From a virus, in IMG/VR virus record IMGVR_UViG_3300036766_002289, positions 154,056 through 218,055 of that record: a stretch of 64,000 nt of DNA. One strand, 5' to 3'. Under the pieces are notes generated by a model that worked only from the letters and a program-made list of their open reading frames with translations, did no database searches and was not told the origin of the DNA. A program made the position numbers and the translations under genes. Below are positions 5,104 to 57,704 of the stretch, in pieces; positions within the stretch are counted from its first letter, which is position 1; each line of letters starts with the position of its first letter.

Positions 5104-5117
5104 CTTAGTTGTACCAG
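5101..5117 (+). repeat. TAGCTTAGTTGTACCAG element, copy 1
   Basis: Exact 17-nt element starting with the UAG stop of clpX. Four more copies lie at 26271, 44794, 45631 and 48186, all at stop codons. Confidence 0.9.
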
Positions 5118-7017: not shown

Positions 7018-7771
7018 AAGTCCGCAATATCAGAACTGTGAAGTGCTTAATCCAGATGGGCACCTCATGTTCCGTTGTTCATACAAAAAAGCCAATTGGT
7101 ACCTCGAAAGAAATCTAGCCGTCAAGTTGAAGGATGAACCATTAGTTGTCAAATTGCTATTTACTCCTAATGGTAATGGGCATATTGGCGACCCATATCA
7201 TTTACAAGTAATGCAGAATAAATGCGCAGTATGTGGGAATGCTGAGGATTTAACTAGGCATCATATAGTTCCCTATTGTTATAGGCGATACTTCCCAGAT
7301 GAAATCAAGAATCATCGTGCTTATGATGTGATGGCAATGTGTACTAATTGTCACCATGCTTATGAAACTCAAGCGGAGTGTCTTAAAAAAGAAATTGGAG
7401 AAGAATATGGGATGCCAGTTGGCGGCATGGGTGCCAAATATGACAAGAAATCTGCTGGGGCTAAAACGGCGGCACATGCAATTTTACAACATGCATCAAA
7501 GATGCCCCCTGCAAGATTAGAGGAACTATATGAACGTGTGCGTGTTCATTTAGGAAGGGAGGCAACCATAGACGACTTACAACAATTAACTAATAAAAAC
7601 TTACATGATTTTAGAGACTATGTACATCATGGCAAGTATGTAGTGAGCAAAATTCCCACCGATGGGATTGAAGAATTTATCAGAAGGTGGCGTAAGCATT
7701 TTTTGGAAACTATGCAACCAAGGTTCATGCCAAATAATTGGACGGTAGAGCGTTCAGTTTGGCATAAGTAG
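6986..7771 (+). CDS. HNH-domain protein resembling the EXD2 C-terminal domain
   Basis: 261 aa. Zinc/HNH core: CAVCG, then LTRHHIVPYCYRRYFP, then MAMCTNCHHAYE (about residues 75-130). The C-terminal block IRRWRKHFLETMQPRFMP is like the tail of eukaryotic EXD2 nucleases. No 3'-5' exonuclease domain is present. This family seems to be a host-type nuclease domain rather than a standard homing enzyme; activity is not proven. The gene ends in UAG. Confidence 0.7.
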   Translation: MKKKGYHYILESPQYQNCEVLNPDGHLMFRCSYKKANWYLERNLAVKLKDEPLVVKLLFTPNGNGHIGDPYHLQVMQNKCAVCGNAEDLTRHHIVPYCYRRYFPDEIKNHRAYDVMAMCTNCHHAYETQAECLKKEIGEEYGMPVGGMGAKYDKKSAGAKTAAHAILQHASKMPPARLEELYERVRVHLGREATIDDLQQLTNKNLHDFRDYVHHGKYVVSKIPTDGIEEFIRRWRKHFLETMQPRFMPNNWTVERSVWHK

Positions 7772-7896: not shown

Positions 7897-9528
7897 ATGG
7901 CTAAATTAGAAAAGAACGAGTATCCCCGTAATTCTTCGGCAGATGATTTTCAGTGTTTTGGACCGCCAGCAACAGAAGACGGTCAGTTTGACACATGTAA
8001 AATCGCTGACCTTGGCTGCTTTACCCAAGACGGTAAAGACAGTAATAAGTATTACCATGCTGCTGTAGTTCAGCATAAAAAGACTAAAGCATGGTTTGTA
8101 TATTTTCAATGGGGTCGCACAGGAGCAACCAATCCCACATTTCAATTCGTTGAATGTGGTGGCGAATCCGATGCACAACGCACTTTTGCCGCACAACTCC
8201 ATGATAAAAACGATAAACGTGGTCAATGGACTACTGTAGCTGGAATCCGCACGCTTCAAGCCAAACCTAATAAGGATTGTTATCTAGTCCGTGCTATGGC
8301 AACTCGTTCAGTCGGCTTACCAGACGCTAAAACCATTAAGGTTAATGAAGGTGCAAAAGTTACTGCCGCACCTACCAGCAAATCTGATTCAAAGATTGAC
8401 AATCATACATTGCGTTTAATGCGGGACTTGAACGTGGCAACAGTGTCTTATACTCGTGGTGTTATGGCAGATGATTCTCTACCTACACAAAAGTCTATTG
8501 ATGAAGCACGTCAGATTCTCCAAGAAGCGCAGAAGCGACTTGTGGTTGTTGGTAACAACGTAAATCATCAAGTAGCCGATAGTGATTTGAATCAACTCAC
8601 AAGGCTGATGTATAGCCGTATTCCTAAGAAAAAGGCTTTACATTGTGCGGCTCATGAGTGGATTCTGAATAAGGACAATATTTTTTCTTGGACGGCGGAC
8701 TTAGACGCATTCGAATCAGCCCTTTACGTAACTGACATTGAAGATTCCAAGCAGACTGAAGATGTGTTTGCTGGTATGCCAATTACTATGGAATGGGTCG
8801 ATCCCACTTCTATTGCTGGAAAATTTGCATATAATTGGTGGCCGAAAGCAACTGCAAATCGGCACGGTGGTCTTGGTAAGATGACAATTAAAAATCTTTG
8901 GCGTGTCCAACGCCGTGGCGATGGGCACGGTGGTCTTGGTAAGATGACAATTAAAAATCTTTGGCGTGTCCAACGCCGTGGCGATGACACGAAGCTTTAT
9001 AGCTGCCAAGATTCGGTATTAAAGGAAAAACCTTCTATTAAGGAACGTCCTTTATTCCAACCCGAACGTTCCGATTTGCAGGACAATTCATTGATTAAGA
9101 AGTATACGGACACCAATACTTCTCTTCTATTTCATGGCACTCGCTCCGTTAATGTTCCTGGTATTCTTCGTGAAAACCTACGTCTTCCAAAGCAATTGGT
9201 TGGTGTTGTTATCACTGGTGCCATGTTCGGTCCTGGTATTTATTGGGCTGACGATTGGAAAAAGAGCGCTGGTTACACCTCATTAAGGGGTTCTTATTGG
9301 TCGTCTGGTGATGGAAGTGTCAAGAATCGTGACGCCTTCATGTTTGCTGGCGATGTTGTTCTTGGTAATCCTTATGTAGCACCATATTCTGGTGGTTATA
9401 CGTCACCTCCTAAAGGTCATCATAGTGTCTATGGTAAGGCTGGAAAGAGTGGCGTTCAGAATAATGAATTCATTATTTACGATACTAAACAGTATCAGCT
9501 TCGTTATTTAATCGAATTTGCAGCATAA
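7897..9528 (+). CDS. PARP-type ADP-ribosyltransferase with WGR domain
   Basis: 543 aa. WGR domain with YFQWGRTGA (about residues 70-78), a helical regulatory region (about 165-300), and the PARP catalytic domain from about 330. The H-Y-E triad is present: H413 in FHGTR, Y449 in GIYWAD, E524 in QNNEFIIY, so poly- or mono-ADP-ribosylation using NAD+ is expected. Residues about 322-363 hold a perfect 21-aa tandem duplication covering the first strand of the catalytic domain. Eraser genes lie at 12692, 32361 and 52390. Its own promoter precedes it. Confidence 0.93.
   Translation: MAKLEKNEYPRNSSADDFQCFGPPATEDGQFDTCKIADLGCFTQDGKDSNKYYHAAVVQHKKTKAWFVYFQWGRTGATNPTFQFVECGGESDAQRTFAAQLHDKNDKRGQWTTVAGIRTLQAKPNKDCYLVRAMATRSVGLPDAKTIKVNEGAKVTAAPTSKSDSKIDNHTLRLMRDLNVATVSYTRGVMADDSLPTQKSIDEARQILQEAQKRLVVVGNNVNHQVADSDLNQLTRLMYSRIPKKKALHCAAHEWILNKDNIFSWTADLDAFESALYVTDIEDSKQTEDVFAGMPITMEWVDPTSIAGKFAYNWWPKATANRHGGLGKMTIKNLWRVQRRGDGHGGLGKMTIKNLWRVQRRGDDTKLYSCQDSVLKEKPSIKERPLFQPERSDLQDNSLIKKYTDTNTSLLFHGTRSVNVPGILRENLRLPKQLVGVVITGAMFGPGIYWADDWKKSAGYTSLRGSYWSSGDGSVKNRDAFMFAGDVVLGNPYVAPYSGGYTSPPKGHHSVYGKAGKSGVQNNEFIIYDTKQYQLRYLIEFAA
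8861..8986 (+). repeat. perfect 63-bp tandem duplication inside the PARP gene
   Basis: Units 8861-8923 and 8924-8986 are identical at every base and keep the reading frame. The encoded unit includes KNLWRVQRRGD, which normally occurs once in PARP catalytic domains. Confidence 0.97.
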
Positions 9529-12691: not shown

Positions 12692-13675
12692 ATGATTACC
12701 AGAGATAAAGTTCGTGGTATGTTCTTAGGCGTTGCCATTGGGGATTCTTTTGGAATGCCTTTCGAAAGCAAGAAGTTTGAAGATGTTAAAGCCCTAAAAA
12801 GAACTAATACTTATCGAAGTAGTAATCGTGGTAAGAAGGGCAGTTGGACTGACGATACACAATTAACGATTGCTACAGCATTGGCCATGCTTGAATCAGG
12901 TGATTTCAACATGGACAACATTGCTGCTTGGCATGTCAAAGCTTATAAAGCTTCGACTTCAGGGTGGGGAGGCACGACTAGGGATGCTGTTAAAAAACTC
13001 TCTGAAGGAACACATTGGTCAGAATCTGGTAAATTTGTAGGACAAAATAATAGGGGATTTGGCAATGGTGTAGTGATGAAAGCAGCACCATTAGCTGCAT
13101 ACTTTGCTCTTGCCAATGACGACTTGGATTATGACAATTCCATTTGTGATTTTACAATGATGACCCACCAAACAAGTGTGGCTGTTAGTTCTTGTTATGC
13201 CCATGTAGAAGCTCTAATGTATTGTTTGCGAGAAACAATTGATAGCTTCCGCAGTAGAGAATTTATTGAGGCGATAGTGGAGTCCAGTACGATTGGTGCC
13301 GCTTATTTCCCAGAAACTTTCAAGGATGATATAACCACTAAGTTAGAATCTATAAGAGAAATATACAGTATTCCAGATTTACTTTTTGATGACGGTTATT
13401 TAGTCAGCGAATTTGGCGGCGGTTCTTGTTATGTTTATGATTCTTTACCATTTTCTTATGCATTTTTCCTACGTGGTCCATTCAGTATTGAGAGCATGTA
13501 TGATGTTGCATATGCTGGCGGTGACTCTGATACAAATGCCTCCATCGTTGCAAGCATGATCGGCGCAATCTGTGGAACGAAAGTTTTCCCAAAAACTCTG
13601 GTAGAAGGATTATCTGCAAAAAATCAAATTTTGAGAATAGCCGACCTGTTTTATGAAAAGTTCTTTACAAATTGA
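12692..13675 (+). CDS. ADP-ribosylglycohydrolase (ADPRH/DraG family), copy 1
   Basis: 327 aa. Metal-binding motifs GSWTDDTQL (about residue 50) and YAGGDSDTNASI (about 275) supply the dinuclear Mg ligands of the family. It hydrolyses ADP-ribose from proteins or small molecules. It lies 3.2 kb downstream of the PARP gene on the same strand. A second copy is at 32361; the two are divergent. Confidence 0.9.
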   Translation: MITRDKVRGMFLGVAIGDSFGMPFESKKFEDVKALKRTNTYRSSNRGKKGSWTDDTQLTIATALAMLESGDFNMDNIAAWHVKAYKASTSGWGGTTRDAVKKLSEGTHWSESGKFVGQNNRGFGNGVVMKAAPLAAYFALANDDLDYDNSICDFTMMTHQTSVAVSSCYAHVEALMYCLRETIDSFRSREFIEAIVESSTIGAAYFPETFKDDITTKLESIREIYSIPDLLFDDGYLVSEFGGGSCYVYDSLPFSYAFFLRGPFSIESMYDVAYAGGDSDTNASIVASMIGAICGTKVFPKTLVEGLSAKNQILRIADLFYEKFFTN

Positions 13676-13732: not shown

Positions 13733-14164
13733 ATGTATGCTTCCCATGATTTCGTCATTACAAAACACCTGAGAGAAAGATTTGTTGAACGTTTTTCAAA
13801 AGAAAGTGTAGAATTTGCCCACCTGCGAGCATGTAAACAAATTAGTTGTGAAACATGCAGAGAACTGACGTTTAGTTTATGCGAATTAGTAGAGCAAAAT
13901 AGAAAAAATTGGGATAGCATTATTTGTGCAAAAATGCACGATGCAAAAAACGTTAAGATTTTCCAGAATGATTTTACTTTCATGGACACAATGTATAAGA
14001 AATATGGTTACGACCGTTATGACTTTCTGGTAGAAGGCAATATCTTATTTGTGGTCAAAGGGAATCATGTGGGAGTTACTTGCTGTAATGCTCAAAACCC
14101 ACTCAATGGTTCAATGGTAATTGCAAACTATATCAATCGTCCAAAATACAAGAAAGCAAATTAA
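13733..14164 (+). CDS. hypothetical protein
   Basis: 143 aa, basic, with ITKHLRERFVERF near the start and four Cys between residues 31 and 56 that may bind metal. Not recognised. Strong GGGAGG ribosome-binding site; first gene after a promoter. Confidence 0.7.
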   Translation: MYASHDFVITKHLRERFVERFSKESVEFAHLRACKQISCETCRELTFSLCELVEQNRKNWDSIICAKMHDAKNVKIFQNDFTFMDTMYKKYGYDRYDFLVEGNILFVVKGNHVGVTCCNAQNPLNGSMVIANYINRPKYKKAN

Positions 14165-14167
14165 GAA

Positions 14168-14794
14168 ATGGCTATTCTCAAGAAAAAAGATAATGTGAAA
14201 ACACCAGCACAGATGCGTGTTCTAATTGCCAAGGATGTACTGGAGATGCTACCGCTCTTGCATCCAGTGCAGGGAACGTACCTATTGCTAAAAGAATCAC
14301 TCCGTAAAGACTTACGTGACGCCAAGACAAATATGAAATTTGTTGCTAGTAATTGTAAAGTGTGCGCTCTGGGTGCCTGTTTCCTTGGATGGGTTCATCA
14401 TTTCAATACGCTTTCCATACTTGATCTTAATTGCACCGACCATGAGCAAATGATTAGATTGATGAGCGATGTTTTTGATGCAGGTCAACTCGAAATGATT
14501 GAGGCAGCGTTTGAGGGATTTGATAGGTTAGCTAGTTATGTAACGCGCTACCCCGATCTTCATGACCGCCTTCGCGCCATCATGGAAAACATCGTTGTAA
14601 ATAAAGGAACTTTTGTCCCATTGGATAATCAAATGGAAGCTTCATGCACTTGGGGTGACGGCCCTGATGTACTGCTAAGCATCAACGGCACACATTATGA
14701 TTTAACTGCTGACGAGGCAATACGGTTATCTGTGGATTTAAGTCTAGCAGCAGCATGGGCAAAAGAGCAGAATGAACAAACACTTTGCCGATAA
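14168..14794 (+). CDS. hypothetical protein of a DUF6197-like phage family
   Basis: 208 aa. The segment NCKVCALGACFLGWV (about residue 60) recalls the CALGA motif of DUF6197-type proteins. Otherwise helical. No function known. It overlaps the next gene by 23 nt. Confidence 0.55.
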   Translation: MAILKKKDNVKTPAQMRVLIAKDVLEMLPLLHPVQGTYLLLKESLRKDLRDAKTNMKFVASNCKVCALGACFLGWVHHFNTLSILDLNCTDHEQMIRLMSDVFDAGQLEMIEAAFEGFDRLASYVTRYPDLHDRLRAIMENIVVNKGTFVPLDNQMEASCTWGDGPDVLLSINGTHYDLTADEAIRLSVDLSLAAAWAKEQNEQTLCR

Positions 14795-15065
14795 ACTGTT
14801 GTCTGGGGAAACCGTTGAATGTCGTCCGCGTGGTAGCTCCATGACCCCTAAGATTAAGTCTGGCCAATTGATAACAATATCACCAGACCTATCTGAACTA
14901 CATAAGGGTGACGTAGTGTTCTGTAAGGTTAAAGGCAAGTATTTCGTTCATCTGTTATCTGCTATCCAAGGTGAACGTTATCAGATAAGTAATAACCACA
15001 ACCATGTTAATGGCTGGATTGGCAAAAATTCTATGTTTGGTAAAGTAGTAAAGGTATCAGACTAA
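14772..15065 (+). CDS. S24/S26-like peptidase fold protein
   Basis: 97 aa. RPRGSSMTPKIKSGQLITIS and GDVVFCKVKGKYFVHLL match the beta-fold and nucleophile region (Ser in GSSM) of LexA/signal-peptidase-like proteases. There is no DNA-binding or membrane domain, and the general-base Lys cannot be placed with certainty. It may be a mini-protease or an inactive relative. Confidence 0.6.
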   Translation: MNKHFADKLLSGETVECRPRGSSMTPKIKSGQLITISPDLSELHKGDVVFCKVKGKYFVHLLSAIQGERYQISNNHNHVNGWIGKNSMFGKVVKVSD

Positions 15066-16026: not shown

Positions 16027-16240
16027 AATTCTAGAAGAAGCCTTAATGTGGTTGGGAATTTGGGCAATTATTTTTAATATCTTTTTTGCTGTGCCCTTAT
16101 TCTTTTATTTAAGAAGCATATCAAGGGAGAAGTTTATATGCATCATGTATATTCTGCACCATTGGTTGCAGAATTTTGATTGTGGTTATGGGCAAGATGA
16201 AGTGTTGAGGGATTTAGCAAAGGTGGAAAAACATGTCTAA
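16019..16240 (+). CDS. small single-helix membrane protein
   Basis: 73 aa. One hydrophobic segment (about residues 9-32) then a charged C-terminus. The start at 16019 has TTGAGG upstream and overlaps the previous gene by 8 nt. Confidence 0.6.
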
Positions 16241-16451
16241 GGAAGATGTTATTCAGGCAGAAGGTAAAGTCTTAGAATCTTTGCCTAATGCACAGTTCAA
16301 AGTGAAGCTGGATACTGGTTATGAAATCATAGCCCATATATCTGGCAGGATGCGAAAGAACTTTATCAAGGTGATCCCAGGCGACGTTGTAGAAGTCGAG
16401 ATTTCACCTTATGATTTGACCAAGGGTCGAATCAGCCGTAGAACAAGATGA
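16233..16451 (+). CDS. infA: translation initiation factor IF-1
   Basis: 72 aa, the exact usual length. Motifs [18 protein letters not shown] and [13 protein letters not shown] are those of bacterial IF-1, an OB-fold protein that sits in the ribosomal A site with IF-2 and IF-3. Co-transcribed with small membrane proteins and directly followed, after 6 nt, by the tRNA(CUA) gene. A phage copy implies control of initiation. Confidence 0.96.
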
Positions 16452-16457
16452 TTGTAT

Positions 16458-16530
16458 GCTCTTGTAGCTCAATGGGAGAGCGACGAACTCTAAATTCGAT
16501 TGGTTGAGGGTTCGAATCCCTCCAAGAGCG
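16458..16530 (+). tRNA. suppressor tRNA, anticodon CUA (reads UAG)
   Basis: 73 nt. Acceptor stem GCTCTTG (16458-16464) pairs fully with CAAGAGC (16523-16529); discriminator G. D-arm GCTC-AATGGGA-GAGC, T-arm GAGGG-TTCGAAT-CCCTC. The anticodon stem CGAA/TTCG encloses the loop CTCTAAA, with U33, anticodon CUA (16490-16492) and A37; the outermost pair 27-43 is A-A. CCA is not encoded. The amino acid is unknown; G73 fits several, including Gln. Confidence 0.87.
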
Positions 16531-16532
16531 TT

Positions 16533-17061: not shown

Positions 17062-17647
17062 AATAGTCGATGGTAAGTTAAAGCATCATATTCACTTGAG
17101 CGACGTTTGTGGTGATAAACCATTACATTTAGTGGCCCAAGGGGAAGCTCACTATGGTCATTGGTTGATGACTGAAGAAGAAATTAAAATTGCAAAAAAA
17201 GAAGAAGAAAGTTTGGACAGTATTGATGAATGGAACAAATTTGCCTATAGTGGATTAAGTCGCAGTGAAAAAGCTTATAATAAAGGCAGGGAAGATAAAG
17301 AAGCCAACTTATCTAAAAATTTAGAATATAATTCCTCAGCACACAAAGGTTTAAATGAACGAACACAAAAATATTATAATGCTGGCTACGATGGTATTGA
17401 AAAAGATAAAGTGAATGTGACGATTAATGAGTACCCAGCAGTCGTGTACCAATATCCTTGGATGCCTAACGATACTATTTTATACTATGAAAACCATCCT
17501 TTTGCGGCATTAGTTCCATATGTAGCCCCACTCCCTTACATGACCTGGAAAAAAGCAATTGAAGAACGTGGTTCAGAAGAAAAAATGAAAGAGTTTGTTG
17601 AATACTATAACAATTTGAAAGGTGAAAAACATGAGCGAAAGAATTAA
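17048..17647 (+). CDS. hypothetical protein
   Basis: 199 aa. The middle (about 65-125) holds three repeats of the type AYNKGREDK / AHKGLNERTQK / YYNAGYDGIEKD, a pattern of repeated short helices. A Tyr/Pro-rich part follows. Not recognised. Confidence 0.65.
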   Translation: MEWIEIVDGKLKHHIHLSDVCGDKPLHLVAQGEAHYGHWLMTEEEIKIAKKEEESLDSIDEWNKFAYSGLSRSEKAYNKGREDKEANLSKNLEYNSSAHKGLNERTQKYYNAGYDGIEKDKVNVTINEYPAVVYQYPWMPNDTILYYENHPFAALVPYVAPLPYMTWKKAIEERGSEEKMKEFVEYYNNLKGEKHERKN

Positions 17648-18083
17648 GCACAAGGTCGTTCCAACCCAAATCAAGGGTGATGACCTAATGGCATTTGTTA
17701 TTTATGCTAAGGTCAAGGCTGTAGACGCCGATGGCCTAAGAGTAATTGTCACAGACACTAATGGCAAGGAAATTAGCATTAAGGGTCGAGACCTTATTGA
17801 AACGTCCTTCTCTGCCGACCAGTTCCAAGAAGAACAGAAGATCAGCAAGACTAAGGCTGAAGAAATTTTCTCTAATGTACAAGACCGACCATTAACTGTT
17901 GCCTTCACGAAGGCAGATGGCTCTGACCGCGTTCTTAGAGGTAGAGTAATTGGAGAAGCTCCACTCGGTAGGAGCTTGGTAGAAGATTTAGACATTGATG
18001 ATCCAAAGAATCGCATCCGAGAAGTAGACCGTAGAACTATCCAATGGTTTGTGGTCGATGGCGTTAAGTACAAAATTAAGTAA
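17631..18083 (+). CDS. phage beta-barrel protein (DUF2693-like C-terminus)
   Basis: 150 aa. PLTVAFTKADGSDRVLRG followed by REVDRRTIQWFVVDGVKYKI is a pattern seen in many phage proteins of unknown role. The N-terminal half (MAFVIYAKVKAVDADGLRVI) looks like a second small barrel. The start at 17631 has AAAGGTG upstream. Confidence 0.6.
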   Translation: MSERIKHKVVPTQIKGDDLMAFVIYAKVKAVDADGLRVIVTDTNGKEISIKGRDLIETSFSADQFQEEQKISKTKAEEIFSNVQDRPLTVAFTKADGSDRVLRGRVIGEAPLGRSLVEDLDIDDPKNRIREVDRRTIQWFVVDGVKYKIK

Positions 18084-32109: not shown

Positions 32110-32364
32110 ATGGCTGGATATCATCTGAATGACATTCCCCGTGGCGAATACGGTGAGCTTTCTAAGGTAATTGAAGAAGCTTTAGAGCTAAAAGACGCTA
32201 TGGAACAAGGGCAGAAATTGATGTGTCTTATTGAGCTTGCCGATATACTCGGGGCCATCGAAGGATATTTAGAAAAATATTATGAAGGCAAGATTACTGT
32301 TGATGATCTTTTTAACATGTCCTATGCTACCAAAAGAGCTTTTGAGTCAGGATATAGAAAATGA
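32110..32364 (+). CDS. MazG-like NTP pyrophosphohydrolase
   Basis: 84 aa. GELSKVIEEALELKDAM and IELADILGAIEGYL supply the ExxE...ExxD metal motifs of all-alpha NTP pyrophosphatases. These hydrolyse NTPs or alarmone-like nucleotides, and phage copies can change host (p)ppGpp or dNTP balance. Coupled by ATGA to the second ADP-ribosylglycohydrolase. Confidence 0.8.
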   Translation: MAGYHLNDIPRGEYGELSKVIEEALELKDAMEQGQKLMCLIELADILGAIEGYLEKYYEGKITVDDLFNMSYATKRAFESGYRK

Positions 32365-33254
32365 GTATTGAAGATAAGAAACGTGGAGCATTCTGGGGCT
32401 TAATTATCGGGGACGCTCTTGGGGCACCCGTAGAATTTAAAATGCCTGGTGAATTTGTTCCAGTAACAGATTACCAGAGTGGTGGCCCACATAGCCTTAA
32501 TAAGGGCGAATGGACTGATGATACAAGTCTTGCTCTTGCTCTTGCTGATAGTCTGGCCAATGGCTGGAATACTAAAGACCAACTTGACAAGTATTGTAGC
32601 TGGTATGAAGAAGGCAAGTACTCCGTCAATGGTTGGTGTTTTGATATCGGTGGCACTACAAAACATGCCTTGGAAAACTATAGGGACAGTGGTAATCCAG
32701 AAACTTGTGGGCTAGCCGATGATGATTATTCAGGGAATGGTTCGATTATGAGATTGGCACCAGTGCCAATTAAATATTCAGAATTGTTTTTTGATCTAGA
32801 TGAACTCATCAGATTAGCAGAAGAATCTAGTGCTACAACTCATGCAAGTAAGAAATGTAGAGATTGTTGTGCATACCTAGCCACATTAATAGCTGGATTA
32901 ATCAATGGAATTGATAGGGAAATCTTACTGAATGACCCTTATTATATTCCACCAAAAGTATGTACAGCCGTAAGACTAGTCGCAGAAGGTAGTTACCGCA
33001 AAAACAAGGTCAAAGGCAGTGGTTATGTAGTAGAAAGCTTGGAAGCTGCTTTATGGGCTTTTCACAAAGCTGAGAATTTCAGGAAAGCTGTCTTGGCTGC
33101 GGTTAATCTAGGAGATGATGCGGACACTACGGCGGCGGTCTGTGGGCAGTTGGCTGGGGCTTATTGGGGGTTTGAAGCTATTCCAGAGGAATGGCGTATT
33201 AATTTAGCTAAAAATGATTTAATAGAAGGCTATTTTAATGCCCTGATAAAATAA
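32361..33254 (+). CDS. ADP-ribosylglycohydrolase (ADPRH/DraG family), copy 2
   Basis: 297 aa. GEWTDDTSLALAL (about residue 47), FDIGGTTKHAL, GNGSIMRLAPV and NLGDDADTTAAVCGQLAG (about 252) are the full set of family motifs, including Mg ligands. It is closer to the classic bacterial family pattern than copy 1 at 12692. Two erasers with one PARP suggest different substrates or timing. Confidence 0.93.
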   Translation: MSIEDKKRGAFWGLIIGDALGAPVEFKMPGEFVPVTDYQSGGPHSLNKGEWTDDTSLALALADSLANGWNTKDQLDKYCSWYEEGKYSVNGWCFDIGGTTKHALENYRDSGNPETCGLADDDYSGNGSIMRLAPVPIKYSELFFDLDELIRLAEESSATTHASKKCRDCCAYLATLIAGLINGIDREILLNDPYYIPPKVCTAVRLVAEGSYRKNKVKGSGYVVESLEAALWAFHKAENFRKAVLAAVNLGDDADTTAAVCGQLAGAYWGFEAIPEEWRINLAKNDLIEGYFNALIK

Positions 33255-33989: not shown

Positions 33990-34339
33990 TTGAAGACCAA
34001 GTTGGCAAGACGCATGGCTCGAAAAATTATATTCAATTCCAAGTTACTGGATATAATCCATTAACCAAAGAGTTGCATGTCTACATTGAGCATATAGGTG
34101 ATCCACATTGGCACCGCTATATCGACGAAGGTAAGAACTACATATTATTTCGGCACGGCAATAGTGACGATGATTTTTCTAATGAAGACCCGATGGAATT
34201 ATGGGAGTTATCTACAGATCAGAAAAAATGGGTGGAAGGCGACCATATCGCCATCCCAGAATATGATCTCGTTCTACCGCAAATTTTAATTTATTACTGG
34301 CATAAAGACGATAGACTAAGCATGGAATGGGACTGGTAA
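33986..34339 (+). CDS. hypothetical protein
   Basis: 117 aa from GTG 33986. Acidic, rich in His, Trp and Asp (HIGDPHWHRYIDEG). Not recognised. The TAA overlaps the next ATG. Confidence 0.55.
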   Translation: MIEDQVGKTHGSKNYIQFQVTGYNPLTKELHVYIEHIGDPHWHRYIDEGKNYILFRHGNSDDDFSNEDPMELWELSTDQKKWVEGDHIAIPEYDLVLPQILIYYWHKDDRLSMEWDW

Positions 34340-34929
34340 TGATTGACTACTCTAAAATAGCTTCTGCCGTAACCTATTACGAAGCCAAAGGTTACAAACA
34401 AATTGAAGTGCCTTGGATTGTATCTTTAGATACTATGCTGGCAACTAGACCAAAAGGCGCTCGTTTGTTCAGTACTTTTGCTGGGGAATTAGTTGCATCT
34501 GGGGAACAGTCATTTATTGAAATCAGAGATAGTCTAAAGCCAGGTAAGTATCAGTGTGTGACACCATGTTTTCGTGATGAGCCAGTTAAAGATGAATTGC
34601 ACCGTCAGTATTTCATTAAAAATGAGCTTATATGGGTGTTAAATAGCTATGAATTTAGCCAGCCGCATCTTGAATCAGTGATACAAGATGCACTAAATTT
34701 CTTTAAACAATATGGAACCGCTGAAGTCGTAGATGCTCCGATTTTTAATGCTCACTACAACAAAGATATCGAACTCAACGGCATAGAAGTTGGCTCTTAT
34801 GGTTTCAGGATTCATGAAGGTTTCCATTGGATTTACGGCACAGGTTGTGCAGAGCCTAGACTAACTATGGCTATGGATTTACTGAACATTCTTGCGAATA
34901 GTAATTCAACTCGACTACCCCTTCTTTAA
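34339..34929 (+). CDS. mini class II aminoacyl-tRNA synthetase-like protein
   Basis: 196 aa. Motif 2 is seen in TPCFRDEPVKDELHRQYFIK (FRxE with a loop and return strand) and motif 3 in YGTGCAEPRLTMAMDLL (GxGxxxxR). No anticodon-binding domain is present. Such stand-alone cores include AsnA- and BirA-like amide or adenylate-forming enzymes as well as synthetase paralogues. Substrate cannot be named. The TAATG overlap fixes the start at 34339; the 3' end overlaps the convergent phosphoesterase gene by 59 nt. Confidence 0.65.
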   Translation: MIDYSKIASAVTYYEAKGYKQIEVPWIVSLDTMLATRPKGARLFSTFAGELVASGEQSFIEIRDSLKPGKYQCVTPCFRDEPVKDELHRQYFIKNELIWVLNSYEFSQPHLESVIQDALNFFKQYGTAEVVDAPIFNAHYNKDIELNGIEVGSYGFRIHEGFHWIYGTGCAEPRLTMAMDLLNILANSNSTRLPLL

Positions 34930-43119: not shown

Positions 43120-43958
43120 TTAAACTAAGTAACGGGCATGAATTTAAATATTGTGCAGCATCAGGTGCATTAGGTTACGACGGAAAAGGATATTTTTGGG
43201 AAGCCCCTTTCCGATGGCTTAAAATACTACGCCCTGAAGAATTTACAATAATCACAAAAACCATTACCCTTGAACCACGAAAAGGAGAGTATCGTTGGTG
43301 GAAGCCTTGGAAGACTATTAAGATTAAAAATGATTACGTCATCAATGCAATGGGATTGCCAAATGATGGACTTAAATGGTGGTTGAAAAATGTTTATGGT
43401 AGATTAAACTATGATACAATTGTCTCAGTAGCCGCGTGGACTCCATTTGAAGCCAGAACAATAGCACATGAGCTTAACTATTGTGGTATCCAAGCCATTG
43501 AACTTAATCTTTCTTGCCCAAATGTAGAACATCCAGACAGTTTCCCTATAATCAAGGAGTTTTTGAAATTTACTAGGCATCCTGTGATATTGAAAATCGA
43601 ATATGATGAGGATTATATTGCCCTTTTAAAAGAATTTCATGGTAAGATTGAAGCCGTTGACGCAATTAATACTATCCCTTTTTATGATATGGCAGTAGGA
43701 CAATCTCCACTTCACCCATTAGAAGGTGGAATTAGTGGTCCATTAATTTCATTTAAATCAAAGAAAATTTTGCGTGATATTAAAGCCCATTATCCTGGTG
43801 TTCAGGTGATTAGTGGTGGTGGAATTTACACTCTTGAAGAGGCGAAACGCAGGATTGCTATGAAGGCAGATGCGATATCGTTTGGTACAGTTTTTCTTAA
43901 GAAATGTTGGTTGCCAAATTTAATAATTAAAAAGCTTGCCGAACATGATAGAAAATAA
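43116..43958 (+). CDS. dihydroorotate dehydrogenase-like flavoenzyme
   Basis: 280 aa. CAASGALGYDGKGYFWE, TKTITLEPRKG, NAMGLPNDG, AIELNLSCPNVE, DAINTIPF, GISGPLISFKSKKILRDI and VISGGGIYTLEEA follow class 1 DHODH order, including the FMN phosphate site. The catalytic base region LSCPN is kept. It would convert dihydroorotate to orotate or act on a related substrate. Full pathway not present here. Start by ATGA overlap. Confidence 0.82.
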   Translation: MIKLSNGHEFKYCAASGALGYDGKGYFWEAPFRWLKILRPEEFTIITKTITLEPRKGEYRWWKPWKTIKIKNDYVINAMGLPNDGLKWWLKNVYGRLNYDTIVSVAAWTPFEARTIAHELNYCGIQAIELNLSCPNVEHPDSFPIIKEFLKFTRHPVILKIEYDEDYIALLKEFHGKIEAVDAINTIPFYDMAVGQSPLHPLEGGISGPLISFKSKKILRDIKAHYPGVQVISGGGIYTLEEAKRRIAMKADAISFGTVFLKKCWLPNLIIKKLAEHDRK

Positions 43959-43979
43959 ATGCAATGCTTATATATTTAC

Positions 43980-44801
43980 ATGAAACAAAACTTAATTGGA
44001 AAAATTTATGGGTATCTTGAAGTAATTTCTTGCCTTGGTAGTGATCGTAATGGTAAAAAGGCCGCTGTGCATTGGATGTGTAGGTGCAAATGTGGCAATA
44101 CCGTTGCTGTAACCACTGCCAAACTTAATTTTGGTTTACGTAAAAGTTGCGGGTGTCTGAAAGTGGAAAAAGCGATAATAAATGGAAAAATAGGGAGTGA
44201 GAAGAATAAAACACATAATGGCACCTATACTCCAGAATATAAAACATGGACAATGATTAAAAGTAGATGTAATAATCCAAAATCAAGTGGCTACGAGAAT
44301 TATGGAGGAAGGGGTATTAAAATTTGTGAGAGATGGAACAACTCATTCCAGAACTTTTTAGATGATATGGGGAAGAAGCCAAATACAGATTTTTGCATTG
44401 ATAGAATAAATGTCAATGAAGGATATTACAAGGATAATTGCCAATGGACTAGTTTAAAATCTCAACAAAATAATAAAAGAACAAATATTTATATAGAATT
44501 TGGGGGCAATAAAGCAACGTTGGCAGAATGGGCCACCAAAATTGGAATATGCGGGGCCACTTTAAGAAAACGCATGAAGAATATGTCAATTGAAGACGCC
44601 CTAACATCGCCAAAGAAAATGGTGGGCCGCAGTCGTAAACTATCAACTGATATTAACTTGAATGCGGTTATTAAAAATTTAAATTTAGCATTAAATCAGA
44701 TTGGTAGAAATTGCCTTATTCAGCATTTTGGAGAAGCTGGTACTGATTTGGTGAATTCTATTAAGGTTTTATCCGAGTTAGTCGATGTAAACATAGCTTA
44801 G
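43980..44801 (+). CDS. HNH homing endonuclease with N-terminal zinc module
   Basis: 273 aa. N-terminal CRCKCGNTVAVTTAKL and KSCGCLK module, then the HNH core: YKTWTMIKSRCNNP, NYGGRGIKICERW, FCIDRINVNEGYYKDNCQW. A helix-turn-helix-like end follows (TLAEWATKIGICGATLRKRM). The stop UAG is supplied by repeat element copy 3. Confidence 0.87.
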   Translation: MKQNLIGKIYGYLEVISCLGSDRNGKKAAVHWMCRCKCGNTVAVTTAKLNFGLRKSCGCLKVEKAIINGKIGSEKNKTHNGTYTPEYKTWTMIKSRCNNPKSSGYENYGGRGIKICERWNNSFQNFLDDMGKKPNTDFCIDRINVNEGYYKDNCQWTSLKSQQNNKRTNIYIEFGGNKATLAEWATKIGICGATLRKRMKNMSIEDALTSPKKMVGRSRKLSTDINLNAVIKNLNLALNQIGRNCLIQHFGEAGTDLVNSIKVLSELVDVNIA

Positions 44802-47580: not shown

Positions 47581-47826
47581 ATGGCAAAGAACATTGATGT
47601 TGCAGAGTATGTTTTCAAGCCTGATATGGCTTTACAAGTCGAAGGCCGACATTTAGGCAATCGCCCTTTGTTTAGTAGTAATATTGTATCAAATATCAGT
47701 TATGACTATGATAGGATAACTATTCGTCTTGATGACAAAGCGAACCTTGCCTGGTGGCTTCAAATCCATCTGTCCAAGGAACAATTAAAGCAAATTTTAC
47801 GCGAGGCGGAAGAACATGGCGCGTGA
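47581..47826 (+). CDS. hypothetical protein
   Basis: 81 aa. Strand-rich start, C-terminal helix LSKEQLKQILREAEEH. Overlaps the next gene by 11 nt. Confidence 0.55.
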   Translation: MAKNIDVAEYVFKPDMALQVEGRHLGNRPLFSSNIVSNISYDYDRITIRLDDKANLAWWLQIHLSKEQLKQILREAEEHGA

Positions 47827-48193
47827 TAGATTCATATGCTTTAAAAAAACAATCCCTACTAAAGATCAACTAAAAATGATCTTAGAGGATTATCTTGGTG
47901 GACTTGCTGTTGTAGAGTATGACGATATGCTTGAAGATGGGAATAATGTTAAAAATTATTGGTTTGTAAAATTGCCAGGCAAGCCATCGTTTCCATTTGC
48001 AAGTAAAATTAATCCACTATGCCCTGCCGACCGCTGGTTTGAAGTCTATGTAGGCCAGCTTAATCAAGATAAAGAAGTGGCGTATGGCCCTAATATTGAT
48101 GTAATGACTCGTGGTGCCGATGAGTTAACTAATGTAATTGCAGATGGTTACGCTAATTTGATTGCTAGATATTTTGACGCCGACATAGCCTAG
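47816..48193 (+). CDS. hypothetical protein ending at a UAG element
   Basis: 125 aa, mixed alpha/beta, not recognised. Its last residues are ADIA then UAG in repeat element copy 5. It lies in the same frame as the following RuvB-like gene with no other stop between, so UAG read-through would make a fusion. Confidence 0.6.
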   Translation: MARDRFICFKKTIPTKDQLKMILEDYLGGLAVVEYDDMLEDGNNVKNYWFVKLPGKPSFPFASKINPLCPADRWFEVYVGQLNQDKEVAYGPNIDVMTRGADELTNVIADGYANLIARYFDADIA

Positions 48194-48202
48194 TTGTACC
48201 AG
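48186..48202 (+). repeat. TAGCCTAGTTGTACCAG element, copy 5 (one mismatch)
   Basis: One T-to-C change from the consensus. The second TAG (48191) is the stop codon of the gene in front. Confidence 0.88.
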
Positions 48203-48220
48203 TCTATGCGGAGGTGCTAT

Positions 48221-49291
48221 ATGAGTCAGCTTGAAAAGGTGTTTTTCCCGATTAATAGTGACCCGCCTTTTGCGGATGATCGACGTGCATATCTTGATTC
48301 CACTAATCCAGTTTCGCCTTACTTTGGATTTGTTGGAAATAAGCGTGCTGTCGATAAGCTAATTCGTATAGACTTTGAGGCCCTTGGCCGCTACAACCAC
48401 TGTTGCAGTGACCTGTCCGTAGCTTTCCTTGGCCAAGCGGGTTGCGGTAAGACTGAATTGGCCCGCCGTCATGCCAAGGCCAATAAGCTTCCTTATGTGG
48501 AAATCTCTCCTAAAGCGATTAAGACTTGCCATGATCTTCTCATGGAAATTGCAAGAGTCTGTGCTGCTTCTGGTCTTCCCCTTATTGAAGTAGGTCGCGC
48601 ACAAAACTATTGGATTCCCCCTTGTAACGTCTTTATTGACGAAGTTCATGCACTTGCACCGCCTGTAGTGCAAGGTCTACTTAAAGCAACCGAATACAAT
48701 GACGCAATCCTTGTAACCGACAAGGGTTACACTGCCGACTGTAAACGTGTTCACTGGCTCATTGCAACTACCGACCGTGGCAAGTTGTTCGATGCTTTTG
48801 ATACTCGTTTCAGCAAGGTTATTCTTAATCTTTATACTAAAGATGAAGTTGCGAAGATTGTTCAGTTTAACAATCCAGATTGGACTTTTGATATCTGTCA
48901 GTTGGTTGCACATTATTGTGGACGGATTCCGCGTGAAGCATTGGCTTTTGCACGGGAAATGAAATTGGAACACAATATGCACTCTGATCTTACTTGGCGT
49001 CAAGTAGGGCAGCGTATTGCAAGTGACAACGAAATTGACGAATTTGGAATGAGTTACAAGCGTTTGGCTATCCTTAAGGCACTTGGGCATGGGCCAATTG
49101 CTGAGAAGCGACTGCCGCTTGTAATTGGTGTCAAGGTTGAAGAACTAGATAAGTTTATCCTTCCTTGGTTGGTTGCTGATACAGACGATCAGCCAGCTTT
49201 GGTTGGGGTCTGTAATAAGGGATATTGCTTGACTGATGCTGGTATTGCTGAGTTGAAGTTGAGGAAACTTCCCTATAAGGAGGCAGCATGA
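48221..49291 (+). CDS. RuvB-like AAA+ ATPase
   Basis: 356 aa. YFGFVGNKRAVDKL, Walker A AFLGQAGCGKTELA (about residue 75), Walker B NVFIDEVHAL (about 135), sensor 1 IATTDRG, and arginine-finger region FDAFDTRF. The C-terminal winged helix (RLAILKALGHGPIAEKRLP) resembles RuvB domain III. RuvB drives Holliday-junction branch migration; a phage copy may serve recombination. AGGAGG-like GGAGG upstream of 48221. Confidence 0.82.
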   Translation: MSQLEKVFFPINSDPPFADDRRAYLDSTNPVSPYFGFVGNKRAVDKLIRIDFEALGRYNHCCSDLSVAFLGQAGCGKTELARRHAKANKLPYVEISPKAIKTCHDLLMEIARVCAASGLPLIEVGRAQNYWIPPCNVFIDEVHALAPPVVQGLLKATEYNDAILVTDKGYTADCKRVHWLIATTDRGKLFDAFDTRFSKVILNLYTKDEVAKIVQFNNPDWTFDICQLVAHYCGRIPREALAFAREMKLEHNMHSDLTWRQVGQRIASDNEIDEFGMSYKRLAILKALGHGPIAEKRLPLVIGVKVEELDKFILPWLVADTDDQPALVGVCNKGYCLTDAGIAELKLRKLPYKEAA

Positions 49292-57549: not shown

Positions 57550-57704
57550 ATAAAGAAACTTTCCGTTCTTATATTAAGAAGTTCTTAGCAAGGAAGCTAC
57601 CAGATGTAGCCCTTTTTATCCATCACGAAATTGCGGATCATATTGTTGACGAAGTAATTTTCATCAATTATGAGGACATAACCGATGACACCAAAAGAAC
57701 TTAG
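57531..57704 (+). CDS. small hypothetical protein
   Basis: 57 aa with GAGGAG upstream. Helical first half, aromatic/acidic second half (FIHHEIADHIVDEV). Overlaps both neighbours; stop UAG. Confidence 0.5.
   Translation: MDGRNLDKETFRSYIKKFLARKLPDVALFIHHEIADHIVDEVIFINYEDITDDTKRT

Follow-up and report, generated by a model that had tools for sequence, protein, structure and literature searches.

A conserved amber-type tRNA gene behind the IF-1 gene of a jumbo phage that keeps UAG as an ordinary stop codon

We describe a tRNA gene with the anticodon CUA, of the amber suppressor type, in a 64,000-nt window of viral DNA that covers bases 154056–218055 of a 390,039-bp viral record (G000). The explanation that we favor, and regard as probable, is that it encodes a functional, leaky phage amber suppressor tRNA in a jumbo phage that uses the standard code and has no obligatory target for it. 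Since UAG is still an ordinary stop codon in this phage, the most likely effect of the tRNA is leaky termination, with the code left unchanged.

The tRNA is of class I and is located on the plus strand at 16458–16530 of the window. ARAGORN finds it as the single tRNA in the window (16457–16531, plus strand, anticodon cta) and the Rfam covariance model RF00005 matches it over its full length at 16458–16530, scoring 66.6 bits against a cut-off of 29 (E 2.8e-12). A preliminary description of this DNA, which reported a well-formed tRNA with the loop CTCTAAA and the anticodon CUA, is borne out by both programs, and neither points to another anticodon or to a pseudo-tRNA. The anticodon loop has 7 nt (C32 U33 C34 U35 A36 A37 A38) with U33 present, the ends show G1:C72 and the discriminator G73, and CCA is not encoded. 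The outermost pair of the anticodon stem is an A27·A43 mismatch, and the tRNA fits the 4-bp anticodon-stem type, with 27–43 unpaired and a 7-nt loop, both here and in the related phage LR756511.1. A minimum-energy fold of the single RNA sequence does not give the cloverleaf, which is accepted on the strength of the covariance match and of the compensatory changes described below. The label 'tRNA-Pyl' that ARAGORN attached to the gene is merely its name for any tRNA with a CTA anticodon. A tRNA-Pyl has one base between the acceptor and D stems, a D loop without GG and a 3-nt variable loop; this identity was rejected, as the RF00005 alignment gives two bases (U8 A9), a GG in the D loop and a 6-nt variable region. 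In theta-ribozyme-associated suppressor tRNAs an HDV-like ribozyme is found at the 3' end, and the Rfam matches around the gene include no ribozyme family (the theta family may be absent from Rfam 15).

Based on its portal (phrog_213), major head protein (phrog_138) and RIIA, the phage can be placed among the T4-type jumbo myophages. It has ~48 tRNA genes for most amino acids, the majority clustered at 21–75 kb, and the CUA tRNA is isolated from this main cluster by 95 kb. By ARAGORN there is no Ser or Tyr tRNA among the ~48; both are present in LR756511.1. The tRNA had been described as directly following IF-1, and the IF-1 gene (16233–16451; PF01176 E 1e-24; TIGR00008 infA E 8e-32) indeed ends 6 nt upstream of it. 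Upstream of IF-1 are the genes of an ADP-ribosylglycohydrolase (12692–13675; phrog_6572), a 143-aa conserved protein (13733–14164) and a 97-aa S24/signal-peptidase-fold protein (14772–15065; PF00717 E 1.6e-8), and downstream of the tRNA is the gene of a 153-aa conserved protein (17622–18083), all on the plus strand. The nearest named relative, LR756511.1, is a 595-kb uncultured phage with an 87% identical major head protein, and its locus has the same order: ADP-ribosylglycohydrolase (52% identity), a 143–150-aa protein (48%), S24-like protein (79%), IF-1 (67%), CUA tRNA and 153-aa protein (54%). In LR756511.1 an extra small frame separates IF-1 and the tRNA.

The two CUA tRNAs differ at 16 positions, of which 14 make up seven stem pairs that are altered on both sides. 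Not one stem pair is broken between them and the loop CTCTAAA is identical, and when the structure was shifted by 1–3 columns as a control the number of two-sided changes was zero. The seven two-sided changes, the lack of broken pairs and the unchanged loop therefore indicate a tRNA under selection, and this comparison of two sequences gives strong evidence that the gene and its anticodon are maintained. The A27·A43 mismatch is also found in LR756511.1, where it persists despite the exchange of three of the four pairs beneath it. Further orthologous loci, sought by tRNA pattern, S24-like protein and 153-aa protein, were not found, and the IF-1 neighbors in 28 other viral contigs included one CUA tRNA, within a different tRNA cluster.

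The use of UAG was analyzed across the whole genome. The 509 confidently called genes end in TAA (258), TGA (158) or TAG (93; 18%), and TAG stops are present in every 20-kb bin, structural regions included. The stops that the preliminary description had listed at 7771, 11532, 12185, 26646 and 57704 are all genuine TAG triplets, the frame that ends at 57704 being short (61 codons). Coverage by open frames of at least 150 aa is 0.639 with the standard code, 0.713 when TAG is read as Q and 0.723 when TGA is read as W. Of the TAG-ended genes, 63 have a homologue in LR756511.1 and none of these could be aligned beyond the TAG. Where the orthologue stops at the same place (45 TAG-ended genes) its stop is TAA in 22, TGA in 12 and TAG in 11, showing that relatives freely use TAA or TGA in place of TAG. 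The stop counts, the orthologue stops and the coverage extend beyond the window the earlier statement that UAG is not globally reassigned. This goes further than a mere failure to find recoding, as the comparison of orthologous sequences rules reassignment out. The accompanying suggestion, in which a subset of the UAG codons would be read, found no support: no homology continues beyond any TAG and TAG swaps with TAA and TGA, and the proposed search for genes with an in-frame TAG in the rest of the genome yielded none by orthologue comparison.

A frame-by-frame comparison in which a single stop was read through in each case produced many matches that were out of frame. After overlapping weaker frames were removed, 3 alignments spanned a TAG, 11 a TGA and 26 a TAA, and therefore there is no excess for TAG; homology that spans a TAG of G000 was not found. 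In LR756511.1, at ~43667–44071 on the minus strand, an in-frame TAG lies where the region can be aligned (31%) to an unbroken G000 frame; it may be a single case of read-through in that phage, or else decay or an assembly error. From G000:C1:134750-135601 onward, a region with a TAA in its middle is homologous (29%) to a single 556-aa open frame of LR756511.1 and would be a split or broken gene.

Is the open 27–43 pair a feature of this tRNA only? Two scans were made in viral contigs, both with the loop fixed as CTCTAAA and with shared ancestry partly controlled: a pattern for class I CUA tRNAs (at least 119 loci) and a pattern with a different T-loop (at least 120 loci, 89 of which have a CUA tRNA by ARAGORN among the matches listed). 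Among the matches listed, 27–43 is not a Watson–Crick pair in 74 of 109 CUA tRNAs against 110 of 542 others in the first set (OR 8.3, p 1.5e-21) and in 49 of 80 against 100 of 446 in the second (OR 5.5, p 2.5e-11), and pooling gives 65% of 189 phage CUA tRNAs against 21% of 988 others (OR 6.9, p 3e-31). Among these matches listed, the effect persists when it is stratified by contig (OR 8.5, z 8.2). It weakens after clustering at 70% identity (OR ~4 for each set, with p 6e-4 and 3e-5) and against controls with the same flanking pattern (OR 4.3, p 0.002); against other tRNAs with the loop CTCNNAA it has OR 3.4, p 1.6e-7. For the same matches listed, the inner anticodon-stem pairs of the CUA tRNAs are little affected, save for some 31–39 mismatches, and their acceptor and T stems are as sound as those of other phage tRNAs. 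By open-frame coverage, which is a crude measure, at least 98 viral stretches of 8 kb or more with a CUA tRNA divide into ~13 that look recoded and ~85 that look standard-coded. Among the matches listed, the pair is non-Watson–Crick in 60 of 94 standard-like and 8 of 15 recoded-like stretches, with no difference between them. A counterexample is the relative G003, a 532,729-bp viral record in which both CUA tRNAs have intact 27–43 pairs. These two are arranged in tandem at ~121.4 kb (L259, L260), the record also has one tRNA with a long variable arm and the anticodon UCA, and its genes still end with all three stop codons.

In E. coli, opening of 27–43 was reported to boost suppression of UAG or UAA (Komine and Inokuchi, 1990; Schultz and Yarus, 1994; both as cited in PMC13092985). 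As presented in this citing paper, an E. coli tRNA-Thr converted to CUA reads UAG better with its natural G27–A43 mismatch than in the closed version, and 27–43 mutations let the E. coli CUA tRNA-Trp read UAA (PMC13092985). The same paper extends the 4-bp-stem idea to bacteria, and phages are unmentioned in its main text. We found no description of 27–43 opening in phage CUA tRNAs in the literature searched, which has many subscription journals outside it. We can tentatively suggest that in phage CUA tRNAs as a class the open pair may be an adaptation against release factor 1, that most of its owners may use the standard code, and that the usual role may be leaky termination during infection and not recoding; such tRNAs could read some UAA as well. 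If this is true, closing of 27–43 should lower read-through, which is a testable molecular prediction.

For the phage described here, we infer the charging of the tRNA, the amount of read-through and its use as follows. The tRNA would be transcribed next to IF-1, CCA would be added by the phage's own CCA-adding enzyme (a domain is encoded at 323.4–323.9 kb) or by that of the host, and a host synthetase would putatively charge it. Within the phage genome no synthetase of the GlnRS/GluRS type or the TrpRS/TyrRS type was found. As a guess, G73 and U35 would fit GlnRS; comparison with the nearest other tRNAs singled out no amino acid, and comparison of the phage IF-1 with bacterial IF-1 indicated no single host. 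The charged tRNA would compete with host release factor 1 (RF1) at UAG, the open 27–43 pair would, by analogy to the E. coli work, make it a more efficient stop-codon reader, and the outcome would be that, in an infected cell, some ribosomes pass UAG in messages of the phage and of the host. All the comparisons made are consistent with such leakiness in the absence of an obligatory target. The gain to the phage may possibly lie in rescue at UAG when RF1 is low, in effects on host messages or in a lineage-specific target gene. Because the next in-frame stop after a UAG is usually near (median 13 codons), we weakly prefer a use in which the tRNA keeps translation going at UAG under RF1 shortage. 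Against our explanation, the comparisons brought up no read-through target that would account for a benefit, and with 18% of the genes ending in TAG, strong read-through would be costly to the phage.

Another option is programmed read-through, in which one or a few phage genes need the CUA tRNA for a C-terminally extended protein. In-frame extensions of at least 30 codons are somewhat more frequent in G000 after TAG (28%) than after TAA (16%) or TGA (14%), a few TAG stops run in frame into the next gene (for example at 48191 and in the gene before RIIA), and a lineage-specific target may be present among the half of the genes that lack a homologue in LR756511.1. Yet the TAG excess is missing in LR756511.1, which has the same CUA tRNA, homology across any G000 TAG is absent, and in the 11 TAG/TAG orthologue pairs the extensions are not conserved, the one exception being a few residues at 354957 that directly precede the start of the next gene. 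The in-frame neighbors that were inspected have their own start codons and Shine–Dalgarno-like sequence, and for this reason 47816–49291 and the gene before RIIA were rejected as read-through fusions. We consider programmed read-through unlikely. The slightly longer extensions after TAG than after other stops, seen in G000 and not in LR756511.1, may come from TAG stops that are supplied by a repeated element, described below. Somewhat less likely again is a passenger, that is, a neutral or slightly useful tRNA that was acquired with other phage tRNAs and whose stop reading is unimportant to the phage. Phages with the standard code often have such genes and no known target for them, XacN1 being an example (PMC5852040), but the conserved position and loop and the seven compensatory changes between two diverged phages do not fit this, and phage CUA tRNAs among the matches listed differ from pseudogenes in their sound acceptor and T stems and commonly share the 27–43 feature.

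It is improbable that the gene is a decoy or spare against a host defense that cuts tRNAs, with stop reading incidental. Phage tRNAs can replace cleaved host tRNAs and the ~48 of this phage cover most amino acids, but a tRNA with CUA cannot stand in for any that reads a sense codon, and its anticodon loop was exactly conserved while three stem pairs below 27–43 changed. Reassignment to code 15 (UAG = Gln), in the whole genome or in the late genes, we regard as very improbable, even though a CUA tRNA usually marks a code-15 phage (PMC13037316, PMC10879173). The gain in coverage for TAG = Q is no larger than that for TGA = W, TAG stops occur in all bins, those of the structural regions among them, the release factor family PF00472 (RF1/RF2) is absent from the G000 record (controls were positive in 10 of 14 genomes), and orthologues stop where these TAGs stand, by which this reading has already been refuted.

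Our phage shares a phage-encoded CUA tRNA with the code-15 phages (crAss-like and Lak phages, TAG = Gln); unlike them, it has no gain in coding density, no genes with in-frame TAG and no release factor gene. A phage RF2 is frequent, not obligatory, in code-15 phages. The preliminary description likened the tRNA to the E. coli supF. The loop CTCTAAA is the same, and it is all that the two have in common because supF is a class II tRNA-Tyr. E. coli Su7 is like the phage tRNA of class I with the anticodon CUA, and changes at 27–43 raise its suppression. As far as can be judged from sequence, the phage tRNA is not derived from supF or Su7, and no similar tRNA was found in E. coli. The 4-bp-stem tRNA-Trp of Blastocrithidia and some bacteria also has 27–43 open and is tied to stop-codon reading, but it has the anticodon CCA and reads UGA as a near-cognate, whereas the phage tRNA is fully cognate to UAG (PMC13092985). 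That CUA tRNAs occur in standard-code jumbo phages is already known from the Xanthomonas phage XacN1, for which the authors found no read-through target (PMC5852040). Like G000, XacN1 is a jumbo myophage with a large tRNA set and CUA tRNAs in which amber codons remain stops; it differs in having two CUA tRNAs in its terminal repeats among other tRNAs (PMC5852040), while in G000 the sole CUA gene follows IF-1 and has a syntenic counterpart in a related phage. CUA tRNAs in non-recoding phages are thus an open puzzle, and the compensatory changes show that at least one of them is maintained.

A 200-aa protein at 34327–34929 of the window resembles a bare catalytic domain of a class II tRNA synthetase, without an anticodon-binding domain (PF00152 slightly below cut-off; phrog_4806 E 5e-41). 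It has orthologues in LR756511.1 (62%) and in another relative, G001 (52%), and a search for further relatives in viral contigs found none. It was rejected as a dedicated charger of the CUA tRNA, since it is also present in G001, of which 340 kb were examined without a CUA tRNA.

The window also has a WGR and PARP protein at 7897–9528 (PF00644 E 7e-22) with a tandem repeat of ~20 aa. Two ADP-ribosylglycohydrolases (12692–13675 and 32361–33254) are found in the same region, and a putative writer and putative erasers of ADP-ribosylation would share one part of the phage genome.

The repeated element mentioned above is roughly TAGCTTAGTTGTACCAG and has ~18 copies in the genome, nearly all on the plus strand at 159–302 kb, with window copies at 5109 and 48194. 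Its core, TTGTACCAG, has 23 copies in G001 and 2 in LR756511.1. The element is located at gene ends, 16–53 nt before the next start. It gives about a dozen upstream genes their TAG stop and once lies ahead of a tRNA-like piece, and on these grounds it resembles a promoter-type element.
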